Shown here piece by piece: positions 7,985 to 35,384 of a stretch of 35,384 bases of DNA. Where the stretch lies: IMG/VR virus record IMGVR_UViG_3300032893_000195, positions 1 to 35,384 of that record. The stretch is one strand, 5' to 3'. Every line of letters begins with the position of its first letter. The first letter of the stretch is position 1. Origin of the DNA: a virus. Under the pieces are notes generated by a model. That model did not search any database. It saw only the letters and a program-made list of their open reading frames with translations, and was not told the DNA's origin. A program made the position numbers and the translations under genes.

Positions 7985-9001
7985 TTGCTTGCGTCTTGCA
8001 GAATTGCATCGGCGCGAGGCAGGACTCCGGCAAAACTGCCGGCAACGGACTCGCGCCGGCTCTCTTCTCCCAATAGGTTCTGTAGATCGGACGGTTTCGC
8101 TTTGCGCGTTGCTGTGTTGGATCATCCCGCTACGCTTGTCGGGTATCGAGCCCGTTTATTCGCCGGCGACGCCGGAGTCGAGCAAACGGTCGTACTCATG
8201 CGCAAGCTGATCGATCAGGCGCTTTCCGATTCTGCGTTTGTGCGCTTCGCGATGGACGTGGTGCGCAGTGTGCCGGCGCATGATGAGGCGGGCGAAGTGG
8301 CTGCCATCTTCGCGTGGGTACAGGCAAATATTCGGTACACCAAAGATCCGGTTACAAAAGAAAAACTCTATCCTCCGCAAGAGCTGCTAAAAACTCGCGC
8401 GGGTGATTGCGACGACATGGCGATGCTGATCGCGGCGATCGCGATCGCCGACGGCTATCCGGCGCGCTTGGTTACGGTGAGCTCGAGCCCGGATTCGCCG
8501 GATGAGTTTTCGCACGTGTACGTCGAGGTGGAAGTGCCGCCGGGATCGGGCAATTGGATTGCTCTCGATGCGGCTCGACCTGGCGCTGCGTTCGGACGCT
8601 CGCCGGAATACTTTTTCCGCAAACGGGCCTGGTCTCTCACTGACGACACGTATGCGGATCTGAACGGAGCAAGTCAGATGCGCGGTCTCAATGGTTACGC
8701 GCGGCTCGGTGCGGTCGGGGATTTTGATTGGAGCTCACTGCTGCAGCAAACCGTGCAGGAAACTCCCCAGATTATCGCCGCGGCACAAGGAACGCCGACG
8801 CGCTCGGTGCTGCCAAGTGGCGCGACGGTTTCAACGGGCAGCCCGTATGCGTCTTTCGTGACGCCGTACACGCCGGGTTATGGGGCGCCGGCCGCGGGCT
8901 ATCCTCTGTCCACGTTAAATGCAGCCTCGAGCTCGATTTTCACGAGCGCTCTGCCATGGCTCGCGATCGGAGCGGTGCTCATTCTCGCTTTTCGCAAGTA
9001 A
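7985..9001 (+). CDS. Transglutaminase-like protein with C-terminal membrane anchor
   Basis: Counted from TTG 7985 (338 residues); the first 45 residues are poorly convincing and the true start may be GTG 8114 or ATG 8198. The domain is transglutaminase-like (papain-fold): AGDCDDMAML carries Cys142, SHVYVEV carries His177 and WIALDAA carries Asp195, in the family's usual Cys-His-Asp order. A linker rich in Pro, Thr and Gly ends in one hydrophobic helix (ALPWLAIGAVLILAF) and RK, so the enzyme would be held on a membrane. The family can cross-link, or act as a cysteine protease or amidase. As the first late gene before a row of membrane-anchored proteins it may mature or cross-link virion proteins; that role is inferred. 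Confidence 0.75.
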   Translation: MLASCRIASARGRTPAKLPATDSRRLSSPNRFCRSDGFALRVAVLDHPATLVGYRARLFAGDAGVEQTVVLMRKLIDQALSDSAFVRFAMDVVRSVPAHDEAGEVAAIFAWVQANIRYTKDPVTKEKLYPPQELLKTRAGDCDDMAMLIAAIAIADGYPARLVTVSSSPDSPDEFSHVYVEVEVPPGSGNWIALDAARPGAAFGRSPEYFFRKRAWSLTDDTYADLNGASQMRGLNGYARLGAVGDFDWSSLLQQTVQETPQIIAAAQGTPTRSVLPSGATVSTGSPYASFVTPYTPGYGAPAAGYPLSTLNAASSSIFTSALPWLAIGAVLILAFRK

Positions 9002-14799: not shown

Positions 14800-14899
14800 G
14801 GCGCGGAGGTGAGTTTTGGCACAAGTTAGGGTGTTTAATCCGGCATACACACCGCGAAGTTTTTTCGCGCGTGGGGCTGAGAGAGGGGGTACAAGCACA

Positions 14900-15358
14900 A
14901 TGGCACACCATCGTCATCACCGTCGAAACCGTCGGCACAATCCGTTTGGCGTTTCCGGCACGGTCGTCAAAGACGTCGTTTACAACGGCGTCGGCGCGGG
15001 CGTTTCCGGATATCTCGCTGGGCTGGTCGGGCAATCGGGCTGGATGGATGTTCTCGCGACTGCGGCAATCGGAGTCGGTTTGAACTTCGCCGGCAAGTCG
15101 GTCGTCGGGGCAGAAGCAGGTGAGGAGCTCATGAAGGGCGGCTTGCTGTTGGCCGGAATCAAAGCGGCCAAGCAGTTTGGCGTCGCAGTGCCCGGCCTCG
15201 GGCTCTATGTTCCGAGCTACTTCTCGGCACCTACGACGTCAGACGCTTACGGGCGCGCAAGCGCTCCGACCATCATGCTGCCGGCTGCAGCATCGGGCGG
15301 CGGCAAGGGCGTCGGCTACGGCAATCGCTTTAAGTCGCGCTTTGCCACGCGGTTCTAG
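14900..15358 (+). CDS. Basic, glycine-rich hydrophobic late protein
   Basis: 152 residues from ATG 14900 (GAGAGGGGG about 10 nt upstream). An in-frame TTG at 14816 has an excellent GGAGGTGA before it and would add 28 residues, so two starts are possible. The N-terminus is extremely basic (HHRHHRRNRRHNPFG). A long Gly/Ala/Val-rich hydrophobic part with two helices follows (VGAGVSGYLAGLVG; VLATAAIGVGLNFAG), then VPGLGLY and a basic end (NRFKSRFATRF). That end echoes the KRFQSRFAKC start of the next protein. This fits a membrane-embedded, DNA- or capsid-contacting virion protein. Confidence 0.6.
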   Translation: MAHHRHHRRNRRHNPFGVSGTVVKDVVYNGVGAGVSGYLAGLVGQSGWMDVLATAAIGVGLNFAGKSVVGAEAGEELMKGGLLLAGIKAAKQFGVAVPGLGLYVPSYFSAPTTSDAYGRASAPTIMLPAAASGGGKGVGYGNRFKSRFATRF

Positions 15359-15432
15359 CGGACCGGTGTAGTTTTTCCGCTGTGCGTAAGCACGGCATGA
15401 AGGATTCAGACCTGAGAGGAGGCGAAAACAAC

Positions 15433-16203
15433 ATGGTCAACAAACGATTTCAATCGCGTTTCGCGAAGTGCCGCGAAATTACCGAGCGTGAAGTCGGCCG
15501 CCCGAGACTCGAGATGCTCCGCAAAAATCCCATCATCGCAGGGCAACTCGAGTACCTCGTGCAGCCGATTTACGACTTTTACGGCGTGGCAGTTGCCACG
15601 GCCGTGACAAAGCAGAGCACGTTCGCTCAGCCCATCGGCGCCAACTATACGCCGTCCGGCGGAGCGGCGATTGTGAAGTCTCTCTACCACACCAATTTGG
15701 TGCAGCCCGGAATGTTGGATGCACCGAAAAAGATGTTGGTGAAGGGCATCTGCCTCGTGCTGCGGAATGATGTTGCTCCGCAGGATCTCGCGAGTTTCGT
15801 CGGTCAAACACTCCTGCAACTCCAGATCTCCGGTAAAGACTACTGGACCGGTCTAGCGCAGAAGTGCCCGGCGGGTGGCGGGGCTTTCGGCTTCGCAATC
15901 TCGACGCAGACACTCGCGGCCGGTGGAACGATGGCGGTTCTCAATTCGAACGGCTATCCCCACACGCTCAACATCAACACGATCACCGACGATATGCCAC
16001 AGGTGCCCGGACTGCCAGCAATGGATCCGATCCTCGGGCAGCTCATCGAACAGCAGCAGAACTTTTTCGTCACGCTGGATCCGACGATCACAGGCTCGGC
16101 TGCGTTCACGACGCTGGCCGCGGCTCCTGCGACGCAGTTCGTCGGCACGGGCATCAATGCTCACGTGTACCTCGAGGGCGTACTGATGCGGGCGGTGCTG
16201 TAG
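15433..16203 (+). CDS. Candidate major capsid protein (jelly-roll-like)
   Basis: 256 residues with the strongest ribosome-binding site in the late block (GAGAGGAGG before ATG 15433). After a basic N-terminus the protein is mostly beta-like, with no membrane helix: PGMLDAPKKMLVKGICLVLRN, then DLASFVGQTLLQLQISGKDYW, then QQNFFVTLDPTITG, ending AHVYLEGVLMRAVL. From memory this order (TNLxQxGxL, F/M-x-VKxI, QNFxVxL, VxLxGxLxR) recurs in capsid proteins of nontailed phages with jelly-roll folds. Size is close to double-jelly-roll proteins such as PM2 P2 (269 residues). Hairpins follow the gene and may let it be made in excess. It could instead be a large single-barrel protein. Confidence 0.55.
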   Translation: MVNKRFQSRFAKCREITEREVGRPRLEMLRKNPIIAGQLEYLVQPIYDFYGVAVATAVTKQSTFAQPIGANYTPSGGAAIVKSLYHTNLVQPGMLDAPKKMLVKGICLVLRNDVAPQDLASFVGQTLLQLQISGKDYWTGLAQKCPAGGGAFGFAISTQTLAAGGTMAVLNSNGYPHTLNINTITDDMPQVPGLPAMDPILGQLIEQQQNFFVTLDPTITGSAAFTTLAAAPATQFVGTGINAHVYLEGVLMRAVL

Positions 16204-16220
16204 ATCGCAATTACCAACGC

Positions 16221-16271
16221 GCTCGCCGTTGCGCTGTGCTTGGCGAGCCGGGACGCGAGCGGGCCCGGCTC
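16221..16271 (+). terminator. Two overlapping, mutually exclusive hairpins after the capsid gene
   Basis: GCTCGCC (16221-16227) pairs with GGCGAGC (16242-16248), while GAGCCGGG (16245-16252) pairs with CCCGGCTC (16264-16271). The two stems share bases 16245-16248, so only one can form at a time. There is no clean U-tract after the second. Partial terminator, attenuator or RNA-processing site are the options. Confidence 0.5.
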
Positions 16272-16302
16272 CACATTTCTCAAAAGAAGGGAGTCCACCG
16301 CG

Positions 16303-16761
16303 ATGGATACGACGCAGCAAGTGGACGACAATTTCGAGCGGCAATGGTTTTCCTATGTGCTCGATTCGGTGGTTGGCGCGAATGCGGTGCAGGCTCCGAG
16401 TCAATTGCAGATTCTCACCGATGCGGATTTTGAGCTCTGGTGGCTGATTGGCTCAGCGACGGCCGCGGCTTCGCTGAAGGTGTTGATCAAAGAAGCGGCG
16501 ACCGGCCGGGATTTTATCGGCACGACGGCCTCGGTCATTTCCGGCGCCGGCACATTCAACGGCATCAATTTCAATCTACTGTGCGGCCTGGCGAGTGCGG
16601 CGGCGGCGTTTCCCCTGGCGGTTCCGTTTGTCATGCCGGCGACGCGCACCTATACCGTGCTGTATTCGGATTCAAGCGGCGCCCAGCAAACGATCGAGCT
16701 CGTGTTTTCCGGTTTCAAGCTGTGGCAAAAGTCCACGGCGGCATCCGCGGCCGGTCACTAA
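16303..16761 (+). CDS. Small beta-rich capsid-block protein, paralogue A
   Basis: 152 residues from ATG 16303, preceded by AAGGGAG. A polar N-terminus leads into DADFELWWLIGSATAA, a central Gly/Ala-rich part, then FPLAVPFVMPATRTYTVLY and TIELVFSGFKLW. The alternating hydrophobic pattern and the lack of helices suggest one beta barrel. The first and last signatures align with those of the next gene (SDFHLLALLGSATVN; PYQFDLPRSQVIVLL; TVQLVLYGVA), so the two are probably tandem paralogues. A minor capsid, penton or second coat protein is likely. Confidence 0.55.
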   Translation: MDTTQQVDDNFERQWFSYVLDSVVGANAVQAPSQLQILTDADFELWWLIGSATAAASLKVLIKEAATGRDFIGTTASVISGAGTFNGINFNLLCGLASAAAAFPLAVPFVMPATRTYTVLYSDSSGAQQTIELVFSGFKLWQKSTAASAAGH

Positions 16762-16794
16762 AAAACGCTCGAGCGTGCGGGAAGGAACGCAGCA

Positions 16795-17358
16795 ATGCAG
16801 CAAGCAGATCTCAGAACGTTGCGCCGGCAACTGATCAATCCCTACGCGCAGATGTTGCCATTGCGCTCGGATCAGGAATCGGTGTATCGCTTCGCCGAAC
16901 CGAATCCGCCGGGGCTCGAGGGCTACTTTCCGCGGTGGGAAGTGGTGAGCATGGTGTTAGGCGCGCAGCAGTCGCTGCAGGTGCGAGTCGATTTGATGAG
17001 TGATTTTCACCTGCTCGCGCTGCTCGGCTCGGCCACGGTCAACACCGGGCTAGGCGGGTTTCGCGCGGCGCTCTATGACGTTTTGAAAAAGCGGCGCATC
17101 GGCTCCGATCGCGGGATCCAATTTCCCAACATCGGCGGAGCTGCAGGCTCGGCGTTTTACATGCGCGAGCCGTACCAGTTCGATTTGCCGCGGTCGCAGG
17201 TGATCGTGCTTTTGCAGAACATGGAAGTCGCGCAGAACACAGTGCAGCTCGTGCTCTACGGCGTGGCGGCACCGTTCACGGGCAGGCTTAGCAATGAGCT
17301 GCCCAGCTATGGGCCGACACAGCCCGGGCTGCAGGACGATTGCACATTTGGCGGGTGA
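16795..17358 (+). CDS. Small beta-rich capsid-block protein, paralogue B
   Basis: 187 residues, with GGGAAGGAA before the ATG. A helical, basic N-terminus (LRTLRRQLINPYAQML) precedes a beta domain: GYFPRWEVVSMVLGA, SDFHLLALLGSATVN, FRAALYDVLKKRRI, FYMREPYQFDLPRSQ, then TVQLVLYGVA. This shares the 'DF.L..L.GSAT' and 'P...LP...' signatures with paralogue A. The extra N-terminal arm could make inter-subunit contacts. Two related small barrels beside a larger beta protein recall viruses built from several jelly-roll coat proteins (for example the P23-77/sphaerolipovirus type); this comparison is my inference. Confidence 0.55.
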   Translation: MQQADLRTLRRQLINPYAQMLPLRSDQESVYRFAEPNPPGLEGYFPRWEVVSMVLGAQQSLQVRVDLMSDFHLLALLGSATVNTGLGGFRAALYDVLKKRRIGSDRGIQFPNIGGAAGSAFYMREPYQFDLPRSQVIVLLQNMEVAQNTVQLVLYGVAAPFTGRLSNELPSYGPTQPGLQDDCTFGG

Positions 17359-17362
17359 CAGC

Positions 17363-17830
17363 ATGGGCTCTACATTGTGCGGGCCACAGCCCGTTAAAAA
17401 ACCGCTATGGATCGATCCTCCGGATCAGTGGGAGAACCTCGATCTCATCAATTACGTCGCGCTGCCTGGCGTCGGTCTCACCGCGAACGTGATCAGCTTT
17501 AAAGTGCCACTTGGGCACAATGGGGTGATCAAAAAAATCGCCAACAATTTTGTGGGCGGGGGGTGGACCGAAGGCTCGGGCGATGTGACTTGGCAGATCC
17601 TCGTCGATGGCGCACCTCCGCCGGGCTCGGTCGGTTACGACAATATCCTCGCTTCGCTCGGCTCGCCGGCGAATCCGGTGGAGATTGCCGGCTTTCGCAT
17701 CTACGAAAATCAGGTGCTCACGCTGGTGGTGCGCAATGCGGCCGTAGTGCTCGCGCAGCAACTCTCGGGCGGGCGGTTCATCGGGTATCTATATCCGCGC
17801 CAAATGGAGGAGGATAACGCATTCCTATGA
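17363..17830 (+). CDS. Beta-barrel-like minor capsid or spike protein
   Basis: 155 residues from ATG 17363, four bases after the previous stop. After an N-terminal arm (KKPLWIDPPDQWENLDL) the protein alternates like a jelly roll: ANVISFKVPLGHNGVIKKI, DVTWQILVDGAPPP, NPVEIAGFRIYENQV, LTLVVRNAAVVL, FIGYLYPRQ. It has no cysteine in the domain and no membrane helix. It is coupled by ATGA to the secreted spike-like protein that follows. A capsid-vertex or spike-base protein is a reasonable guess; other small virion beta proteins are possible. Confidence 0.55.
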   Translation: MGSTLCGPQPVKKPLWIDPPDQWENLDLINYVALPGVGLTANVISFKVPLGHNGVIKKIANNFVGGGWTEGSGDVTWQILVDGAPPPGSVGYDNILASLGSPANPVEIAGFRIYENQVLTLVVRNAAVVLAQQLSGGRFIGYLYPRQMEEDNAFL

Positions 17831-18903
17831 AAGCTCGCCTTGGCATGCTGTCGCTTTTCCTGGCGCTCGGATCGATCGTCGCGCACGCGCAATTTATCGG
17901 GTACACCTCGGCGCAAAGCACGACGTCGACGCCCTACAATAACGTCACGTGCACCGCGGCGCTCACGGCAAGCCCGGTGACAGTGCGGAACATTGGGCAG
18001 GGCGGGCACTGGGCGACACTCACCGGCAATAGCGGCGCCACCACGCTGCTTTACACAATTCAGGGATCTTACGACGGCATCACGTTTTTCGATATCTCCG
18101 ACGTGGGCAGTCTGCCGCCACAGTCAACGGACATTCCGAACATCACGGGCACGGGCTACTATCCGGTCATCGGGGTCAAGGTCGGGGCGTGCACGCCCAG
18201 CAATGCGACGATCACGATCAAGTACGGCGGAATTTCGCTCACTCCTAGTCAGCCGGTTGGATCCGCACAAGGCGGGCAGCTCAATAAGCACCTGGCCTCA
18301 AACCTGGGCGCGGGGGGAGCGTATCAGTCGGGCGCATTACGCACACCGTTTGGCAGTTCGGCCGGCGTGCTCAATTTCATTTTCGGCAGTGGCGCCGGGC
18401 CGACGGGCTCGACGTTAGTGGTCACGTGTCAAACCCTGGGCACGGCGACGGCCGCGCTGCAGACGTTCACGTTTCCACTGCAAACGACAAACTCGCTCGC
18501 GCAAAGCTTTAATGTGCCGCCCGCGGCGTGTCCCTATTTCAACGTGACCTACAACAATGGCGGGGCGAGTGCGAATGTGTTCTCGCTCGATTATGCGTTT
18601 GCTCCGCCCGGCTCCTCGCCTCCGCCGTATGCCTACACGCACATCACGGGCACGAGCGCCACGACAATCAAGGCGACGCAGGGCACCGTGCATACGGTGT
18701 CGATCAATACCGGTGGAGCGGGTACGTTCACGCTCTTTGATTTGCCGGCCGCCAGCTGCACGGGCACGCCGGCGACGAATCAGGTCGCGATTGTCACCTC
18801 TACAGCGGCAACACTGCAGACGTTCACATATGACGCTAATTTTCTGAGCGGGATCTGCGCGAAAGCTTCGGTCGCCATGGATGTTACGGTCTCGAGTCAA
18901 TGA
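17827..18903 (+). CDS. Secreted beta-rich spike-like protein with signal peptide
   Basis: 358 residues. A clear Sec signal peptide (MKARLGMLSLFLALGSIVA, cleavage after AHA before QF) is followed by a Ser/Thr/Gly-rich, beta-dominated protein with about ten scattered Cys (for example NVTCTAAL, KVGACTPS, LVVTCQTL, PAACPYF). Segments such as LLYTIQGSYDGITFFDISD and ATITIKYGGIS resemble domains of phage spike or fibre proteins that begin 'YxxxGSxDGxxW'. It lies in the capsid block and is coupled by ATGA on both sides. The signal peptide implies export, unusual for a virion protein built in the cytoplasm. Confidence 0.6.
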   Translation: MKARLGMLSLFLALGSIVAHAQFIGYTSAQSTTSTPYNNVTCTAALTASPVTVRNIGQGGHWATLTGNSGATTLLYTIQGSYDGITFFDISDVGSLPPQSTDIPNITGTGYYPVIGVKVGACTPSNATITIKYGGISLTPSQPVGSAQGGQLNKHLASNLGAGGAYQSGALRTPFGSSAGVLNFIFGSGAGPTGSTLVVTCQTLGTATAALQTFTFPLQTTNSLAQSFNVPPAACPYFNVTYNNGGASANVFSLDYAFAPPGSSPPPYAYTHITGTSATTIKATQGTVHTVSINTGGAGTFTLFDLPAASCTGTPATNQVAIVTSTAATLQTFTYDANFLSGICAKASVAMDVTVSSQ

Positions 18904-21472: not shown

Positions 21473-22669
21473 ATGGGTCGGTTCATCAATCTGCGCGAGC
21501 TGCGGATCGCGGTGATTCTTTACGTCGTGCTTCCGACGGCCGCGGCCGCGCAATTTACGACGGTCTCGGGCACCGTCACCGATCCGAATGGGTTGCCTTA
21601 CGCCGGCGGTACCATCTCGGCGACGCTGATCTCGAGCGGCACGCCCACGCTCAGCGGATTACCGTACACACCACCATCGCAGCCAACCGGGCTCAACTCC
21701 GCGGGCAGCTTCACGCTGCAGCTCGGGGATAACACGGTCCTGCAGCCGGGCGGCACGCAATGGAAATTTATTGTTTGCTCGGGAGTGGCCACGGTGCAGC
21801 CCGCGATCGGTAAGGGTCCGATCTGTTTTACGGCGGGGCCGATCACGATCTCGGGATCCTCGCAATCGATCACGGCAACGCTCACCGCGGCCGCTCTCGC
21901 GTTAACTGTGCCAGTCGGCGGCGGCGGCGTGAGCGGGCCCGGATCCTCGACGCTCAACGCTTTTGCTAAGTGGAATAATACCGGCGGCACGGCACTCGCC
22001 AACTCGCTTGCGGTCGACAATGGCACGACGTTGACATATAGCGGTACTGGCGGGCTCTCCGCGGCGAGCCTGGCGAACACACCCACGGGCACGCTCTCGA
22101 TCGGAACCAACATCACGAGCGGGAAAGTGCAGATCGGAAGCTCGAGCGCGGGCAGCACGGTGGCAAGTACGGCCGACATAACCACCATCAACGATCGAGC
22201 CGGGGGCGGATTTTCCGCCGGCAACGGCTCGGGCGGAGTGCAGCTTCAAGACGACACTTTAAGCGCGATCTTGCGGCTCACGGGTGGCGAGTTCACGCTC
22301 ATCAATAGCTCGATTCTCAATATCACCTCGTCGGGCACCGTGCTCGAGACAAACTTTCCGGTGTTTGAAACGGGCTCCTTTGTTTCTGGGAATGGGCCCG
22401 GGGGCACGTTCACGCTGAGCGGCTGCACGCCGTCGGCTCTTGTCGGTGGCAATACGGCGGGGCAGTTCACGAGCGGCACCACGGGCACGTGCAGCACAAC
22501 GATTACCTTCGGTACGAACGTGATCGCGCCGCATGGCTGGAATTGCGCGGTGAGCGATCGCAATACTGCAGCGGTGGGCGTCACTACGGCGTCAAGTACG
22601 ACAACGGCCACGATCAGCGTTCCAACCACGAGCGGGAACACGGTTTCGTTTTCCTGCATGGGGTACTGA
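21473..22669 (+). CDS. Secreted fibre protein (short paralogue)
   Basis: 398 residues. A Sec signal peptide (ELRIAVILYVVLPTAAA, cleavage before QF) is followed by a domain at about 27-157 that is nearly the same as that in the 1260-residue fibre: QFTTVSGTVTDPNGLPYAG, SSGTPTLSGLPYTPPSQP, then FTAGPITISG. This beta domain resembles the carboxypeptidase-regulatory-like domains common in acidobacterial surface proteins. The rest is Gly/Ser/Thr-rich repeat-like beta structure (FAKWNNTGGTALANSL) typical of fibre shafts. It ends in a small head with Cys (WNCAVSDRNTAAVG; SFSCMGY). It probably binds the host surface; the export signal is the unexpected part. Confidence 0.65.
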   Translation: MGRFINLRELRIAVILYVVLPTAAAAQFTTVSGTVTDPNGLPYAGGTISATLISSGTPTLSGLPYTPPSQPTGLNSAGSFTLQLGDNTVLQPGGTQWKFIVCSGVATVQPAIGKGPICFTAGPITISGSSQSITATLTAAALALTVPVGGGGVSGPGSSTLNAFAKWNNTGGTALANSLAVDNGTTLTYSGTGGLSAASLANTPTGTLSIGTNITSGKVQIGSSSAGSTVASTADITTINDRAGGGFSAGNGSGGVQLQDDTLSAILRLTGGEFTLINSSILNITSSGTVLETNFPVFETGSFVSGNGPGGTFTLSGCTPSALVGGNTAGQFTSGTTGTCSTTITFGTNVIAPHGWNCAVSDRNTAAVGVTTASSTTTATISVPTTSGNTVSFSCMGY

Positions 22670-23051: not shown

Positions 23052-26000
23052 ATGCGACGATGCTTTCTGTGGCTCTGTGTGCTCCTCGCGGCATTGCCGG
23101 CCGCGGCGCAGTTTACCTCGGTGACGGGTACGGTCACGGATCCGAACGGCATCCCGTATGCGTACGGCACCATCTCGGCGACGATCATCTCGAGCGGCAC
23201 TCCCACGCTGAACGGTTTTCCCTACACTCCACCATCGCAGCCCGCGGGCTTGAATTCGCTCGGCTCTTTCGTGATGCAGCTCGCCGATAACACGGTGCTG
23301 CAGCCTGGCGGGTCACAATGGAAATTTACGGTTTGCTCGGGCGCGGGCACGGTCAACCCGGCAATCGGCAAGGGCAGTGTGTGCTTTACTGCAGGGCCGA
23401 TCACGATCTCGGGCTTTTCGCAGAGCATTTCGGCGACGCTCAACGCGGCTGCTCTGGCACTGACGGTGCCGATCGGCGGGGGCGGTGGAGTGTCGAGCAT
23501 CACGGGCGACGGCACGCTGATTACTAACAGCTCATCGGTCGGTGCGGTGGTGCTCACGCTCGGCAATGCGCCGGCCACAAGCGTTTGGGGCAATACGGCG
23601 GGCGGATCCGGGGCGCCGGCGTACACCGCAAACCCGGTAGTAAACGGGCTTTCGCTCGCGGGCATTACGGGAGCAACTCAGTGCTTACACGTCAATGCCT
23701 CGGGCCTTGTTAGCGGTACGGGCTCCGATTGCGGCGCCGGCGGGGGAGTCACGGGATCGGGCACACCTGGCCATGTGTCGTATTGGACGGGGGCCACGGC
23801 GCTCGGCGATTCGCCGATCACAACCGATGGAAGCACCTTTGTCACGCTGGGCACGGGTCTCGCTCCGCTCACCATCACCGGCAATGCAGTCTCGGAGCGA
23901 TCGGCGCCGGCCGGCACGTGCGCGGGCACGAATGCAATTCCCGGGCCGACGGTAGGCTGCAGCTCGTTTTTAAGTTTGGATCTGCCGGCAACCTCGAGCG
24001 CAAGCGCTATCACCTCGGGCGTGACAGCCTTACAGAAAAACAATACGGGCACGGCCGTCGCGCTGCAGATGGCGGGTTATTTTAGTTCGCAAAATCAGGG
24101 CGGGGCGATCACAGAATCGCGCGGGCTCTATGCGGAAAGCTATCAGACGACGGGGGCCGCGCCGACGACGAACCGCGGCATTTTTGGCTTCGCGGCCAAT
24201 ACGGGCGGCGGCACCTCTACCACGAATGAGGCGGGCGTTTTTCAGTCGGGGGCAAGTGCGGGCACGAATACAAACGATTACGGAGTGCATATCCTCACGC
24301 CGGTCGCAGGTGGCACACTCACGAATCACGCCGGGCTAAAGATCGAAACGCAGGGCACGGGCACGGCGATCACTACGGGCTCGGATCCGACGGTTTTGGG
24401 CTCGCTCACATCGGGCGGCACGAACTGCGTGCAAGCGAGCAGCACGGGGCAGTTGTCGATCACGGGCTCACCATGTGGCGCCGGCGGTGGGCTGCCATCT
24501 GGGATACAAGCGCAGCCCTTGGTGAACACAACCGGGGCGACTACCTACGCAACGTCGGCGCTCTTTTGGGATGCATCGCAATTTACGGGTGCGACGGCAG
24601 ACGTCAAGCTCAACACCGCGAATGCGTACGCCATCACGAATAACGGGGGCACGATCGACGCGCGAGCGCTGGGCGGGGCGCAGACGATCGCATCGGAAGT
24701 CAGCATTAGCCAATTGCGGCCGCCGGTCCTCACTTCGCCCGCCGGCACCTCGCCTGGTGCCGGCACTTACAAGCTGGTGTACACACTCACGTCGCCGGCG
24801 GCAACCGAAACCTCGGCGTCGATGGAATCGTCGATCACGATCACGGGCGCGCAGTCGATTCAAGTCGCGGCGCCATCATTCCCGGGATCGGCGACAACCT
24901 ATAGCGTTTACATGACGGCCGCGGGCGGCGCGTCGTGGACTGAGGTAAAGTGCGCGGGGGCGACGGGCGTCGCGATCGGCTCGCCGGTCACCATCACGGC
25001 CACGTGCGGCGGCGGTGCCGTCTCGAAAAGTAATAATGGCTTCGGTGTATCGCTGATCCCTCCGAAAACTGGCATTTGGACGGTCACGATCGCCGATTCG
25101 GTTGCAAACACCTCGTGCGGTCTGAAATTTTTCGATAACGCGAGCTATGAAGGGCAGAGCGCCGGCGAGGGGCGATCGTTCTGGCTCACCTCGAATGCGA
25201 GCACTAATGTCGAGGCGCTCGAGTGCACCGATAACAATCCAAAGCAGACGGCAATTTATGTGCGGATCGACGGGATCGCGGCTCGCGGCACGGGCTCGGA
25301 TCACATACAAACGGCAACGTGCCTTTTTCGCAACGTGTTCGACGTCTCGCGCTCTACAAATATGCAGTGCGGTGCGAATCAGGCAGCCTATCCTGTAAGC
25401 AAGTTTTACGGCACGCTTTCGACGGGCACGGGAGCGGCGACGCAGGTCTCGGGCAACTTCGAAGCGAATTCAGTCAGCGAGCCGATGGTCATCGGCACCT
25501 CGGCGTCGGCCACCACGATCGGATGGGATTTTAATAACATCTCTGCGGTGCATCCTGGCAACACTCTTCCTAACATCGAAATTTTGGGCGGGGTGCGCTC
25601 GGTGCATTTTTCCGGCATCACGTACCTCGAGGGCCCATCCGCCGGCGCGTGCGCTTCGCCGATTCAGATCTCTACGCTCGCGAGCATGCCCGGGCCGGTG
25701 GTCTTTGATAACGTGCACCACGGCGCGGGGTGCTCGGGCACGACGTCTTACCTGATTTCTGTGCCGAATGCGTTCACGCTCGGGCAGCTCAATGTGTTGT
25801 CGGTTTTCACGGGCAACTTTACGAACCTTTTCAATTACAACCCTACGAGCTACACCGTCGCCGGCGTGGGCACGGCGACGACGTACCCCAACCTGGTATT
25901 CGATAAAAACAATCCGAGCACCGTGGCCACTGGGCTCAACGTGACGGGCGCCGTCAATTCCGCGACGGGCTTTCAGGTGAATGCGCTCGCTCCGCTGGGG

Positions 26001-26834
26001 GCGGTGCTCTCGGGCAATGGCACGAATGGAGTATTTCAGCAACCGGGCATTGCGGCGTCGACGCCGGCGGGCACCACGGTCACGATCAACGGTGACGGCG
26101 TGAATTCGAATCGCGGCGGTGTGGTCTATATCAACAATTCGTCGACGGTCACGGTCAACATTCAAGGGCCCGCCAACACCGGATTTCAGTCGAATTACTG
26201 GACGACGGTTTGCAACATCAACAGCGGCATGGGCGTGATCACGGTCACGGGCGGCGGTTCGATCGTAAACGGCTACTCTGAAGTGCCTCCCGGGTCGACC
26301 GCGGTACCGAGCTGCGCGAAGATCGTTACTGACGTCGACGGCACCGATTACGACGTGCTGCTGCAGAGCAACAATTATGCCAACCGGCTCACCTCTGACT
26401 ATACGAATGCGACGACGAGCTACACCTCGCTGCTGTCATTTCCGATCGCAGCGAACACAAAAGTCTCATGGCAGTGCGCCGGCGGCTATAAGGTCACGGG
26501 CACGTTTCAAGCGATCTTTGCGGTTAATTTCTCGCAAGCTCCAACGAATGCGGCAATCGCGGGCAACGCAAATACGGGGGACGTCGGCGGGGCAGGGCAT
26601 CAAGAGTCGAATGGGCAAGGGGTCTCAGGGATCACCACGGCATCGGACAATATCGCCACGCAGCCCACGAACACAGCGAGCGCGGCGGGTACGTTTCCTT
26701 TCATCATTTCCGGAGTTGATGAAAATGGAGGCACGGCCGGCGTGATCACGATCGAGGCTAAGAGCAATAACGTTTCCGGCACGGTCACGGTGAAAAAGGA
26801 TAACCTTTGGTGCGTTTGGCAATTTCTAAATTAA
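23052..26834 (+). CDS. Giant secreted fibre protein with beta-helix-like region (long paralogue)
   Basis: 1260 residues, the largest protein here. Signal peptide CFLWLCVLLAALPAAA before QF; a domain at about 21-150 shared with the shorter fibre; a shaft with motifs typical of fibre repeats (GSGTPGHVSYWTGATALGD); and a mid-region at about 510-545 (ADVKLNTANAYAITNNGG, then TIDARALGGAQTI) that looks like the start of a pectate-lyase-type right-handed beta helix. An Ig/FN3-like segment (APSFPGSATTYSVYM) and long Gly/Ser/Thr-rich beta structure follow. The fold suggests a receptor-binding or polysaccharide-degrading fibre. Cysteines are scattered, as in exported proteins. Its 3' end overlaps the esterase start. 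Confidence 0.65.
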   Translation: MRRCFLWLCVLLAALPAAAQFTSVTGTVTDPNGIPYAYGTISATIISSGTPTLNGFPYTPPSQPAGLNSLGSFVMQLADNTVLQPGGSQWKFTVCSGAGTVNPAIGKGSVCFTAGPITISGFSQSISATLNAAALALTVPIGGGGGVSSITGDGTLITNSSSVGAVVLTLGNAPATSVWGNTAGGSGAPAYTANPVVNGLSLAGITGATQCLHVNASGLVSGTGSDCGAGGGVTGSGTPGHVSYWTGATALGDSPITTDGSTFVTLGTGLAPLTITGNAVSERSAPAGTCAGTNAIPGPTVGCSSFLSLDLPATSSASAITSGVTALQKNNTGTAVALQMAGYFSSQNQGGAITESRGLYAESYQTTGAAPTTNRGIFGFAANTGGGTSTTNEAGVFQSGASAGTNTNDYGVHILTPVAGGTLTNHAGLKIETQGTGTAITTGSDPTVLGSLTSGGTNCVQASSTGQLSITGSPCGAGGGLPSGIQAQPLVNTTGATTYATSALFWDASQFTGATADVKLNTANAYAITNNGGTIDARALGGAQTIASEVSISQLRPPVLTSPAGTSPGAGTYKLVYTLTSPAATETSASMESSITITGAQSIQVAAPSFPGSATTYSVYMTAAGGASWTEVKCAGATGVAIGSPVTITATCGGGAVSKSNNGFGVSLIPPKTGIWTVTIADSVANTSCGLKFFDNASYEGQSAGEGRSFWLTSNASTNVEALECTDNNPKQTAIYVRIDGIAARGTGSDHIQTATCLFRNVFDVSRSTNMQCGANQAAYPVSKFYGTLSTGTGAATQVSGNFEANSVSEPMVIGTSASATTIGWDFNNISAVHPGNTLPNIEILGGVRSVHFSGITYLEGPSAGACASPIQISTLASMPGPVVFDNVHHGAGCSGTTSYLISVPNAFTLGQLNVLSVFTGNFTNLFNYNPTSYTVAGVGTATTYPNLVFDKNNPSTVATGLNVTGAVNSATGFQVNALAPLGAVLSGNGTNGVFQQPGIAASTPAGTTVTINGDGVNSNRGGVVYINNSSTVTVNIQGPANTGFQSNYWTTVCNINSGMGVITVTGGGSIVNGYSEVPPGSTAVPSCAKIVTDVDGTDYDVLLQSNNYANRLTSDYTNATTSYTSLLSFPIAANTKVSWQCAGGYKVTGTFQAIFAVNFSQAPTNAAIAGNANTGDVGGAGHQESNGQGVSGITTASDNIATQPTNTASAAGTFPFIISGVDENGGTAGVITIEAKSNNVSGTVTVKKDNLWCVWQFLN

Positions 26835-27934
26835 TTGTGCTGTTCGTGCTGGCTGTCAGCGCTCGGGCATCCACTCTGCCCGGGGGCTGTTCGTTTGGCG
26901 TCGCGTGTGACACTGGCATTTTGTCGGCAACATTCGCCGGCCGCACTCGCTATTTTTACGCTTATTTTCCCGCGGGGCTTTCGAACGGCGTGGCGTATCC
27001 GATGATCACGCACCTGCATGCTGCGTCTTACGTGACGTGCGGAGCGGGCCTCGGGATCGGCGGGGCGAATGGGTGCCCGTCGCCGGGCGAGGATTCAGCG
27101 GGCCCGCTAAAGCAGTTTGCGAACATGAATAACGTCGCGATTCTGTGGGTTCTTTCCACCTGCATGGATACGACGTCAAACGGCGGAGTGCAACCGTTCA
27201 CAGAATGCAGCACTTCCACCACGGGCACCAACGTCGGCGGGTGGGTCTGGGATATTTCGTACTTTTCGAGCTACTACAATTACACGCCGGCGCTGGCGCA
27301 GTCGGATGATCTTGGATGGATCAGCAATCTGATCGCAACTGCAACCGGCACCTGGGGGGCGAATTGTCCCGCTAAGTGCCTGCTCACGGGCCGGTCGACG
27401 GGATCGATCGAGGCGAGCCAATACGGCGCGCAATTCGTGGGCTCGAGTTTGAGCGCGGTTTCTGCGCTTGGCATGTGGGCCGATACGGTCTGCGCGCGAT
27501 CTACCTCGGGCTGCGATGCTTCGCTCGCGGCGATCAGCACCGTGCTCAACGTGTACATCGTCGACGGCGATGCTGATACAACCCAGATTCCATATTGCGG
27601 GGGCTCCACGACGGTTTGGACGGGATTACCGACGATGACCGTGCCGAGCCAAGATGCGGTGTATAGCTACTGGACGGGCGCCAATGGGCTCAAGTGCACC
27701 ACGTTTTCGACGGCGCAAGCGATATGCTCCGCGGGCGTGCCGAATGCGAGTTTTCCCGGGACGGCGCTCGCGACGGGGTGCACCTCGAGCGCGCGCGTGA
27801 TGTTTACGGATTACGTGGGGCACAAGCACACCGATAGCGGGCCAACTTTGCAGACGCTTTGCGGCTTTTGGAATTTCCAATTTCCTACCGTGGCGTGCGT
27901 GCAAGGCAATTACGTGCCGCAAACTTTTTTCTAG
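26807..27934 (+). CDS. Secreted alpha/beta-hydrolase esterase (PHB-depolymerase/feruloyl-esterase-like)
   Basis: 375 residues from TTG 26807 (GTG 26810 is equally good); it overlaps the fibre gene by 28 bp. Signal peptide KLIVLFVLAVSARA. The mature enzyme has the GxSxG nucleophile elbow as GRSTG with Ser197, an acid candidate in YIVDGDADTT (Asp253, 255 or 257) and a late His in GHKHTDSG (His339 or His341): a complete triad in family order. The secreted LpqC/PHB-depolymerase type cleaves esters in polyesters or acetylated polysaccharides. Next to the fibres it may remove O-acetyl groups from a host capsule. Its TAG stop shares the palindrome CTAG with the convergent gene. Confidence 0.65.
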   Translation: MVRLAISKLIVLFVLAVSARASTLPGGCSFGVACDTGILSATFAGRTRYFYAYFPAGLSNGVAYPMITHLHAASYVTCGAGLGIGGANGCPSPGEDSAGPLKQFANMNNVAILWVLSTCMDTTSNGGVQPFTECSTSTTGTNVGGWVWDISYFSSYYNYTPALAQSDDLGWISNLIATATGTWGANCPAKCLLTGRSTGSIEASQYGAQFVGSSLSAVSALGMWADTVCARSTSGCDASLAAISTVLNVYIVDGDADTTQIPYCGGSTTVWTGLPTMTVPSQDAVYSYWTGANGLKCTTFSTAQAICSAGVPNASFPGTALATGCTSSARVMFTDYVGHKHTDSGPTLQTLCGFWNFQFPTVACVQGNYVPQTFF

Positions 27935-29549: not shown

Positions 29550-30190
29550 TTCACACCGTCGGCCGGCGGATTCTCGATATCGAGATGATCGCGAAAGGGA
29601 AGCATCTGCGGTTGCCTTAGCCATTTGTTATAGCGTCGAGCTGGGCCATGGGTGAAGTGGGTCACCGGAGCGAAGTTTTTCGGAGTGTTCGGCCGGAGAA
29701 ATTGCAGCGCGCGGATCTCACAATAGTCGCCGACGCGCACGAGATAGGAGTGCTCCAATTTCAAAAACGTGTAACCAGAAACCCACAGCGGGGCAAACCA
29801 GATCACTGTGCGCCTGGCGATATAAGCGGCATTCATGAGTAAGGGTCTCACGGTGGAAGGCCCGAGCTGTAAATAAGGCGGATACGGCGGATCCACGATC
29901 ACCACGTCGAAGCTTTTCGGCTTGAACGGGGGCAGGAAGGCGTCGCCGATCACGTCGGGCTCTGTAATGGGGTCCATGTCGAGCCGGATCCCGAATTTTG
30001 CCTTTCCGCCAAACAGGTGCAGAGTAGATCGGCCGGCGCACTGCTCGCGCAAAAAGCGCTCCACTTGGGGAGGGAATGACCATTTTTCGCCGCGCTTCTC
30101 CGAAAGATTGCCGCACCAAAAGAGATCGATGGGCTCTCGGGTCCTGCGCTTGGGGAAGTACGTTCCTGGCCGCACTGGCTTTTCTTTCAT
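29546..30190 (-). CDS. DNA methyltransferase-like protein (DPPY motif)
   Basis: ATG 30190 is preferred because it overlaps the stop of the Mom-like gene (ATGA); this gives 214 residues. The catalytic motif IV of amino-methyltransferases is present as VIVDPPYPPY (Asp100-Tyr103). A glycine-containing motif (LHLFGG, 57-62) followed by RLDMDP resembles the SAM-binding loop, though less canonical. The family methylates adenine or cytosine amino groups in DNA. It is small and has no obvious target-recognition domain. Its coupling to a Mom-like gene points to genome modification against restriction. Confidence 0.7.
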   Translation of the reverse strand: MKEKPVRPGTYFPKRRTREPIDLFWCGNLSEKRGEKWSFPPQVERFLREQCAGRSTLHLFGGKAKFGIRLDMDPITEPDVIGDAFLPPFKPKSFDVVIVDPPYPPYLQLGPSTVRPLLMNAAYIARRTVIWFAPLWVSGYTFLKLEHSYLVRVGDYCEIRALQFLRPNTPKNFAPVTHFTHGPARRYNKWLRQPQMLPFRDHLDIENPPADGVK

Positions 30191-30672
30191 GGGGTCCGCA
30201 CCCATCGAATCTTCGCGGTAACGTCACGCTTGGTGCGCTCGCGTCCTTTGTGGGTCTGAAACCCGTAATCGTGGCGCTTTCTTGTTTTCCCGAGAGGGCA
30301 CCATCCGTCGGCGTCGTAAATCGTTCCTTTATGGCCGACGCTAGGATCGGAATAGCTCAGCACGAGCCGAATGCCCGGATTCCAGATCCGGATATGCTTC
30401 CGAGCCATGGCGAGCGCCTGGCTTTCGACGCAGTGCTGCGTCTGGTCGACGAAAAAAACCCGGTAGAGTTGCAGCACAAGGTCGGGGTCGTACATTTCAT
30501 TTGCCTGAGGCCGTCCCCAGATGTGCGCGCCCACGAGTTCGCCGCGTTCGTAAAATTCCAAAATAAAACCAAAGCCCGGCGGAGCGCTTTGCAGGTAGTG
30601 GTGCGCAGCAACCCATGTTTTTGTTGCTCGGGCCTCTGCGGGTTGCGCTCTTCGCAATTGGAGCTGGTTCAT
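30187..30672 (-). CDS. Mom-like DNA-modification protein
   Basis: 161 residues. The N-terminal pattern AHHYLQSAPPGFGFILEFY, then ERGELVGAHIWGRP, then LVLQLYRVFFVDQ, and the later GHKGTIYDADGWCPLGK match the GNAT-like fold of phage Mom proteins. Mu Mom adds a carbamoylmethyl group to adenine N6, which blocks many restriction enzymes. The family identity is from memory and looks good; the chemistry here is inferred. The gene stands alone behind a 68-bp gap that carries the GGTGTTACACC palindrome and is coupled by ATGA to the DPPY methyltransferase, so it may be switched separately. Confidence 0.7.
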   Translation of the reverse strand: MNQLQLRRAQPAEARATKTWVAAHHYLQSAPPGFGFILEFYERGELVGAHIWGRPQANEMYDPDLVLQLYRVFFVDQTQHCVESQALAMARKHIRIWNPGIRLVLSYSDPSVGHKGTIYDADGWCPLGKTRKRHDYGFQTHKGRERTKRDVTAKIRWVRTP

Positions 30673-35010: not shown

Positions 35011-35384
35011 TTTCGAGGATCCCGTTTGCAGGATCTGGGCGCGAGTCCATCGCCCGAAACCTTTCGTAATTCCTTGCGGCATGAGCGTCGGCACGCCACT
35101 ACCCCAAAGCGAAAACGGGCCGCAACGCATCACTGCACGGCCGACGAATTTTTCGGCTGCTCTGACGTTTTCCATCACATAGAGAATGCCTGATTCCACA
35201 AATAAGGCCCGGGCGTGTTCGAAAAGCTGAATTCCTTCTGTGGGGTGGGCGGGTTGCGGGTGAAAATGGCGCATTCCCCATACTGCAAACTTTTCGCACG
35301 GACTTGAGGCGCAACCGAAATCAAACCGTGGCGCACCGCTACGCCGGCAGATTTCGGCAAGGGATGAGATCGCAAGGACGTTTG
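34993..35384 (-). CDS. C5 cytosine methyltransferase-like protein, 3' part (from the circular join)
   Basis: This continues the gene that starts at 266; in the circular molecule the product is 176 residues. Visible here are motif IV (SSPCEKFA), YVMENVR with the motif VI ENV (118-120), and GPFSLWGSGVPTLMPQG, a segment I recall from short phage cytosine-methylase-like proteins. The chain then runs out through RWTRAQILQTGSSKK to a TGA at 34993-34995. The loss of the usual IP-x-x-LA end, found in another frame just downstream, indicates a frameshift. The coding strand is the lower one throughout. Confidence 0.7.
   Translation of the reverse strand, partial: NVLAISSLAEICRRSGAPRFDFGCASSPCEKFAVWGMRHFHPQPAHPTEGIQLFEHARALFVESGILYVMENVRAAEKFVGRAVMRCGPFSLWGSGVPTLMPQGITKGFGRWTRAQILQTGSSKKPAKN
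35258..35384. repeat. Right copy of the 127-bp terminal direct repeat (assembly overlap)
   Basis: Identical to 1-127. With it removed, the ends join seamlessly inside the methyltransferase-like reading frame. Confidence 0.95.

Follow-up and report, generated by a model that had tools for sequence, protein, structure and literature searches.

Four contiguous genes of an uncultured virus, designated P0001 to P0004, most likely build a tailless icosahedral shell, and the block probably serves as shell module in a lineage of tailless dsDNA viruses whose virions probably contain a membrane. This reading is favored because the block is syntenic and conserved in 25 related contigs; because P0002 and P0003 are paralogues, in agreement with their tree, and portal, HK97 capsid and terminase were found in none of 15 genomes; and because the models of P0003 and P0001 match viral coats, late proteins carry hydrophobic segments, and P0002 and P0003 contrast in evolutionary rate. 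It is weakened by the low confidence of the P0001 model, by non-viral domains that match P0003 at least as well, by the occurrence of the ATPase family in a Mu-like tailed phage, and by searches that found no sequence relation to known coat proteins.

Genome Organization and the Four-Gene Block

The source virus record is circular: the window (the whole stretch of 35,384 nucleotides analyzed) carries a 127-nt direct terminal repeat, positions 1–127 being identical to 35258–35384, from which a circular molecule of 35,257 bp (the unique part) follows. Late genes run rightward from about 8 to 28 kb, and the remaining genes mostly leftward. Neither tRNA genes nor matches to Rfam families were found in the window.

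The block contains four genes on the plus strand: P0001 (256 aa, 15433–16203), a candidate major coat protein that is probably a single jelly-roll; P0002 (152 aa, 16303–16761), a small, slow-evolving coat-type protein; P0003 (187 aa, 16795–17358), its fast-evolving paralogue, with an N-terminal extension before a predicted sandwich; and P0004 (155 aa, 17363–17830), a fourth conserved protein, whose open reading frame opens at 17294 and for which orthologues favor the start at 17363. The coordinates of the first three are exactly those of the initial annotation, and P0004 lies within the same interval, where it had been left unnamed. The ribosome-binding site AGAGGAGG (15415–15422, plus strand) lies 10 nt before the ATG of P0001. 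It had been described as the strongest of the late block, which by duplex energy is true among late genes with ATG starts; a TTG start candidate at 14816 is the only late site that outranks it.

Directly upstream of the block lies a gene for a conserved 180-aa protein (14816–15358, plus strand) with a basic N-terminus and a Gly/Ala-rich, hydrophobic middle part, and adjoining it downstream is that of a 358-aa protein (17827–18903, plus strand) whose N-terminus reads like a signal peptide and which is a candidate vertex or spike protein. They were detected by tblastn in at least 16 and at least 22 of the 25 related contigs, respectively; for window genes outside the block such counts are lower bounds, the contigs being partly covered. 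The genome also encodes a transglutaminase-like protein (7985–9001, plus strand; PF01841, E 7e-15), present in 12 of 14 relatives tested and ending in a hydrophobic segment, a lysozyme-like protein, and several late proteins with hydrophobic segments, all such segments being assigned by hydropathy. Together these proteins fit a membrane-containing tailless virion, short of proving it.

Signal-peptide-like N-termini, unusual for virion proteins, were seen in four late proteins (17827–18903, 21473–22669, 23052–26834, and 26807–27934), and in three of them the segment ends in A-x-A-Q or similar. Three of these proteins are conserved across the group, and their sequences suggest that they may be exported during assembly or have a secreted role. 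A 300-nt direct repeat of 76% identity (21542–21841 vs. 23100–23399) reflects a duplicated N-terminal domain common to two neighboring large genes. On the minus strand, positions 30190–30672 encode a Mom-family protein (PF25680, E 1e-20), a family known for DNA modification in phage Mu; tblastn revealed no homologue in the sequenced stretches searched of the 25 relatives.

Conservation of the Block Among Relatives

When IMG/VR was scanned by pattern plus tblastn, using the 256-aa protein as well as alignments of it and of other proteins, 25 distinct related contigs were obtained, the longer ones of 25–39 kb. The source virus and its approximately 25 uncultured relatives form a group with circular genomes of about 35 kb. 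The order P0001-P0002-P0003-P0004 is kept in every contig that covers all four genes, including a divergent clade with about 42% identity in P0001; four contigs (L009–L012) carry one or more extra genes between P0003 and P0004, one of 320–355 aa in each. By tblastn, P0001 was detected in 23 of the 25 contigs (41–91% identity), P0002 and P0004 in all 25, and P0003 in 19, its divergent versions being recognized via the profile. The four block genes are the best-conserved portion of the group genomes, and P0001 shows the highest tblastn identities of any window gene. The two small proteins contrast with each other: over nearly the same genomes, mean column identity is 68% for P0002 vs. 31% for P0003.

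Outside the group, tblastn found no relative of P0001–P0004 or of the ATPase P0005 (see below) in 50,697 records of isolate phages and none of P0001 in plasmids, and 84,980 prokaryote genomes, scanned twice, revealed no provirus. Comparison of P0001–P0004 with Pfam, PHROGs and NCBIfam gave no informative match, comparison of P0001, P0003 and P0004 with PDB sequences gave nothing of weight, and no description of the group was found in the open-licence literature. As far as these searches can tell, the block proteins do not resemble described virus proteins in sequence.

Some relatives carry insertions in the small genes. The P0003 orthologue of contig L013 (11322–12218) contains about 100 additional residues immediately ahead of the GFRxxxYD segment, which gives the impression of a domain inserted into a surface loop. 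In L008 (3024–3246), L032, and L030 (about 1205–1430), an insertion of about 223 nt splits the P0002 gene at the same codon boundary, between DAD and FEWW, beginning after U and ending with G, and its removal restores the frame. It shows pairings like those of a group I intron (P1 with a U.G at the splice site, a P3/P7 pseudoknot, and P8), and Rfam did not recognize it. The P0002 gene is uninterrupted in L007 and L015.

Paralogy of P0002 and P0003

P0002 and P0003 demonstrably descend from a single ancestral gene for a beta-sandwich (jelly-roll-like) protein. A single BLASTP comparison of the two proteins gave E 3e-6. In the pairwise HHalign comparison that the initial annotation had proposed, the E value fell as rows were added to the family alignments, from 1.6e-3 (13 and 15 rows) to 1.5e-4 (18 and 21 rows) and 1.4e-7 (22 and 25 rows, 47 in total; probability 94%, score 53.6), the last match spanning most of the strand region of P0003. 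The highest score among 200 column shuffles was 20.7 against the real 53.6, and an earlier null (250 shuffles) reached 27.2 against real scores of 36–42. The signal is specific, since the profiles of P0001, P0004 and the ATPase matched neither P0002 nor P0003; by the same comparison, P0001 or P0004 as a further paralogue of the pair was rejected at the sequence level. When the P0003 profile was searched in the divergent clade, the only other matches were the P0002 orthologues, at E 0.0015–0.008. In the tree, the P0002 and P0003 families are separate and the divergent clade splits deeply in each, so that the duplication predates the group. A second tandem copy of P0003, with 46–49% identity to the first, is present in L007 and L008. 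The paralogy of the 152- and 187-aa proteins proposed initially is thus borne out by BLASTP, HHalign and the shuffle controls, which agree, and the duplication of a small beta-protein gene by these comparisons together with the tree.

The motifs on which that proposal was based are real and occur in the same order: DFELWWLIGSAT in P0002 and DFHLLALLGSAT in P0003, PFVMP...V-L and PYQFDLP...V-x-L, and finally TIELVFSG and TVQLVLYG, the 152-aa protein having MP instead of the LP that had been claimed. The GSAT tetrapeptide is largely specific to the window, most relatives carrying ASRT or similar; it is therefore weaker evidence of paralogy than it seems, and its presence in both proteins appears to be mostly a local coincidence.

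Predicted Folds of the Block Proteins

The model of P0003 (pLDDT 72.7, pTM 0.66) shows eight main strands over residues 45–158, arranged as a sandwich behind a partly helical N-terminal arm. It supports a jelly-roll-type sandwich for P0003 and, by homology, for P0002. The viral coats of STMV and FBNSV (VIA Z 8.4 for both) and of SPMV and SPV1 (8.2 for both) were matched, PHM (9.3) and GOLD (9.0) at least as well, and similar scores were obtained with a subtilase C-terminal domain, the Pam1 capsid chain 7eel_H and the KP1 baseplate protein 9f4b. PHM is one of the jelly-roll proteins with which virus coats have been compared (PMC8812541). Jelly-rolls are common, and the fold of P0003 does not tell its function.

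The model of P0001 is weak (pLDDT 51.9, pTM 0.51, 137 of 256 residues below 50), with about eight strands over residues 43–256 and poorly modeled stretches at 54–95 and 148–173. Foldseek (E 0.033) and VIA (Z 7.3, 3.9 Å over 129 residues) agreed in ranking SPV1 first, and the coats of HHIV-2, HCIV-1 and SH1 reached VIA Z 5.8–6.2; many of the leading matches are single-jelly-roll coats, with PHM, Kex2 and other unrelated beta domains beside them. Since unrelated models reach such Z values, a range that the tool itself calls common, these matches are a lead, and they weakly support P0001 being a single-jelly-roll coat protein. A fold search of BFVD with this model gave no significant match. None of the PM2, PRD1 and FLiP coats was among the fold matches listed for the block proteins, which is not evidence of their absence.

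The initial reading of the block as jelly-roll coat proteins accordingly stands for P0003 through its model, for P0002 through homology and for the block in that it is conserved and coat-like, and it is weak for P0001. Models lacking jelly-roll topology, or a match to tailed-phage decoration or tail proteins, had been expected to speak against that reading. Jelly-roll topology was found in P0003, yet the tailed-phage chains 7eel_H and 9f4b and non-viral domains matched at similar scores; because jelly-rolls are common and viral, non-viral and tailed-phage chains score alike, the fold matches are not decisive either way.

The Candidate Packaging ATPase

P0005 (28485–29624, minus strand) is a P-loop ATPase with weak profile resemblance to HerA/DUF87 (E 0.3–0.6; HerA of NCBIfam, E 0.15) and a weak, Walker-A-level match to the P23-77 ATPase (hhalign E 1.6e-3, probability 16%). 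It was found in all seven longer contigs tested and, by tblastn, in at least 17 of the 25. It is a candidate packaging ATPase. A distant relative is encoded in a Mu-like tailed-phage contig (L071), together with Portal_Mu and a Mu-type transposase. Because the family also occurs in such a phage, P0005 need not package DNA, and the ATPase was dropped as proof of a packaging lineage.

Proposed Shell and Alternative Readings

In the proposed shell, P0001, with its high conservation and the first-ranking ribosome-binding site among ATG-start late genes, would make up most of the capsid, and the small, slow-evolving P0002 would be its partner coat protein. P0003 may be located at the vertices or on the outside of the shell, because it is fast-evolving and has a partly helical arm, a variable tail and, in some genomes, extra copies or the loop insertion of about 100 residues. 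P0004 could form a vertex complex with the downstream secreted-type proteins, and P0005 may drive the DNA into a shell assembled beforehand. We infer this division of labor, P0001 and P0002 in the shell and P0003 and P0004 at the vertex, as the one that best fits the conservation, the P0003 arm and the repeated copying of P0003.

A different assignment, in which P0001 is a minimal double-jelly-roll coat of the PM2 P2 type and P0002–P0004 are penton, spike-base and minor proteins, would place the lineage with Varidnaviria and not with the single-jelly-roll viruses. At 256 aa P0001 is long for one barrel, the stretches 54–95 and 148–173 could hide strands, and FtsK-HerA ATPases also accompany double-jelly-roll viruses (PMC8812541). 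However, only about eight strands were modeled over residues 43–256, the closest structures are single-barrel coats, and no prokaryotic double-jelly-roll virus coat was among the matches listed, an absence that is not decisive; this assignment seems unlikely. We regard as quite unlikely a shell made of P0001 alone, with P0002, P0003 and P0004 as vertex, spike or decoration proteins. SPV1 offers a precedent in its hexamer-forming VP4 coat and separate VP10 penton, both single jelly-rolls (PMC8459092), and the fast divergence of P0003, its renewed duplication in L007 and L008 and its long insertion in L013 would agree with such a role; P0002, however, occurs in 25 of 25 contigs and is nearly as conserved as P0001, unlike typical receptor-binding proteins.

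That the genome belongs to a divergent tailed phage, its block coding for jelly-roll decoration, tail or fibre proteins, is very improbable. Jelly-rolls do occur in decoration and baseplate proteins of tailed phages, 7eel_H and 9f4b being among the fold matches, and one contig that encodes distant ATPase relatives also carries a Mu portal and transposase. Against this, none of the Caudoviricetes hallmarks, that is HK97-fold capsid, portal and terminase large subunit, was detected in the source record or 14 relatives with models (PF05065, PF04860 and PF03237) that strongly divergent versions could escape and whose positive controls worked. Scanning about 30 window proteins against PHROGs gave no head or tail family beyond chance-level matches, and the block profiles had no match in the stretches searched of those contigs, including the Mu-like one, that encode distant relatives of the ATPase.

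Comparison With Known Single- and Double-Jelly-Roll Viruses

With PM2, PRD1 and FLiP (Bamfordvirae) the source virus would share a tailless architecture, and the length of PM2 P2 is close to that of P0001. It differs from them in that the block has no sequence match to their proteins and in the single barrel modeled, with low confidence, in P0001.

Portogloboviridae (SPV1) have circular dsDNA, as here, and two single-jelly-roll capsid proteins; the SPV1 coat is the best match of the weak P0001 model and also matches P0003. SPV1 differs in its genome of about 20 kb, vs. 35,257 bp here, and its archaeal host, and it is without a packaging ATPase (PMC8812541), whereas P0005 is a candidate here. 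The block comprises four proteins, including a duplicate pair visible in the sequence, and PDB sequence searches with P0001, P0003 and P0004 gave no relation to SPV1. Portogloboviridae have an A-form nucleoprotein core; the resemblance observed is one of fold only.

Helvetiavirae, a single-jelly-roll kingdom now placed in the realm Singelaviria (PMC12714852), are thought to have arisen via duplication of a jelly-roll coat gene, and it has been proposed that an ancestor with one single-jelly-roll coat acquired two by duplication, together with a packaging ATPase (PMC8812541). As is predicted for the block, they have adjacent genes for a small and a large single-jelly-roll coat (VP16/VP17 of P23-77; VP7/VP4 of SH1, HHIV-2 and HCIV-1), and their FtsK-HerA ATPases, for which P0005 is a weakly matching candidate counterpart, lytic enzymes and membrane proteins are further points of possible likeness. 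Each of their two major coats is a single vertical jelly-roll; here such a fold is indicated by a model for P0003, by homology for P0002 and by a low-confidence barrel for P0001. In HCIV-1 and HHIV-2 the penton is surrounded by two single-barrel-type coats that assemble as heterodimers and pseudo-hexamers; VP9, the HCIV-1 penton, consists of one beta-barrel and an N-terminal helix of about 34 residues (PMC6414509), a layout like that of P0003. Comparison of the block with 14 P23-77 proteins by hmmsearch and hhalign revealed no sequence relation (best E 0.03 or worse), the ATPase gene here is on the other strand and far from the block, and the genome is about twice that of P23-77. The two coats of Helvetiavirae are similar in structure and are not known to show this any longer in sequence, whereas the paralogy of P0002 and P0003 is detectable by sequence.

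There is a real chance that the source group is a separate lineage. It is possible, though somewhat doubtful, that this lineage lies outside the described families, perhaps at family to order rank or above, with a shell of three single-jelly-roll proteins, two of them recognizable as duplicates by sequence; next to Helvetiavirae and Portogloboviridae, it would be the third such case. If so, a jelly-roll coat gene duplication would be directly traceable. The duplicate pair itself can be tracked at the sequence level in about 25 genomes, two of which show a later second duplication. If P0002 and P0003 are coat proteins, the step from one coat to two becomes testable, and viruses of this kind, which are known chiefly from extremophiles, would gain a probably bacterial, non-extremophile branch. 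The best reading of these comparisons is that the group works like Helvetiavirae and Portogloboviridae, as a tailless dsDNA lineage with several single-jelly-roll-type coats.
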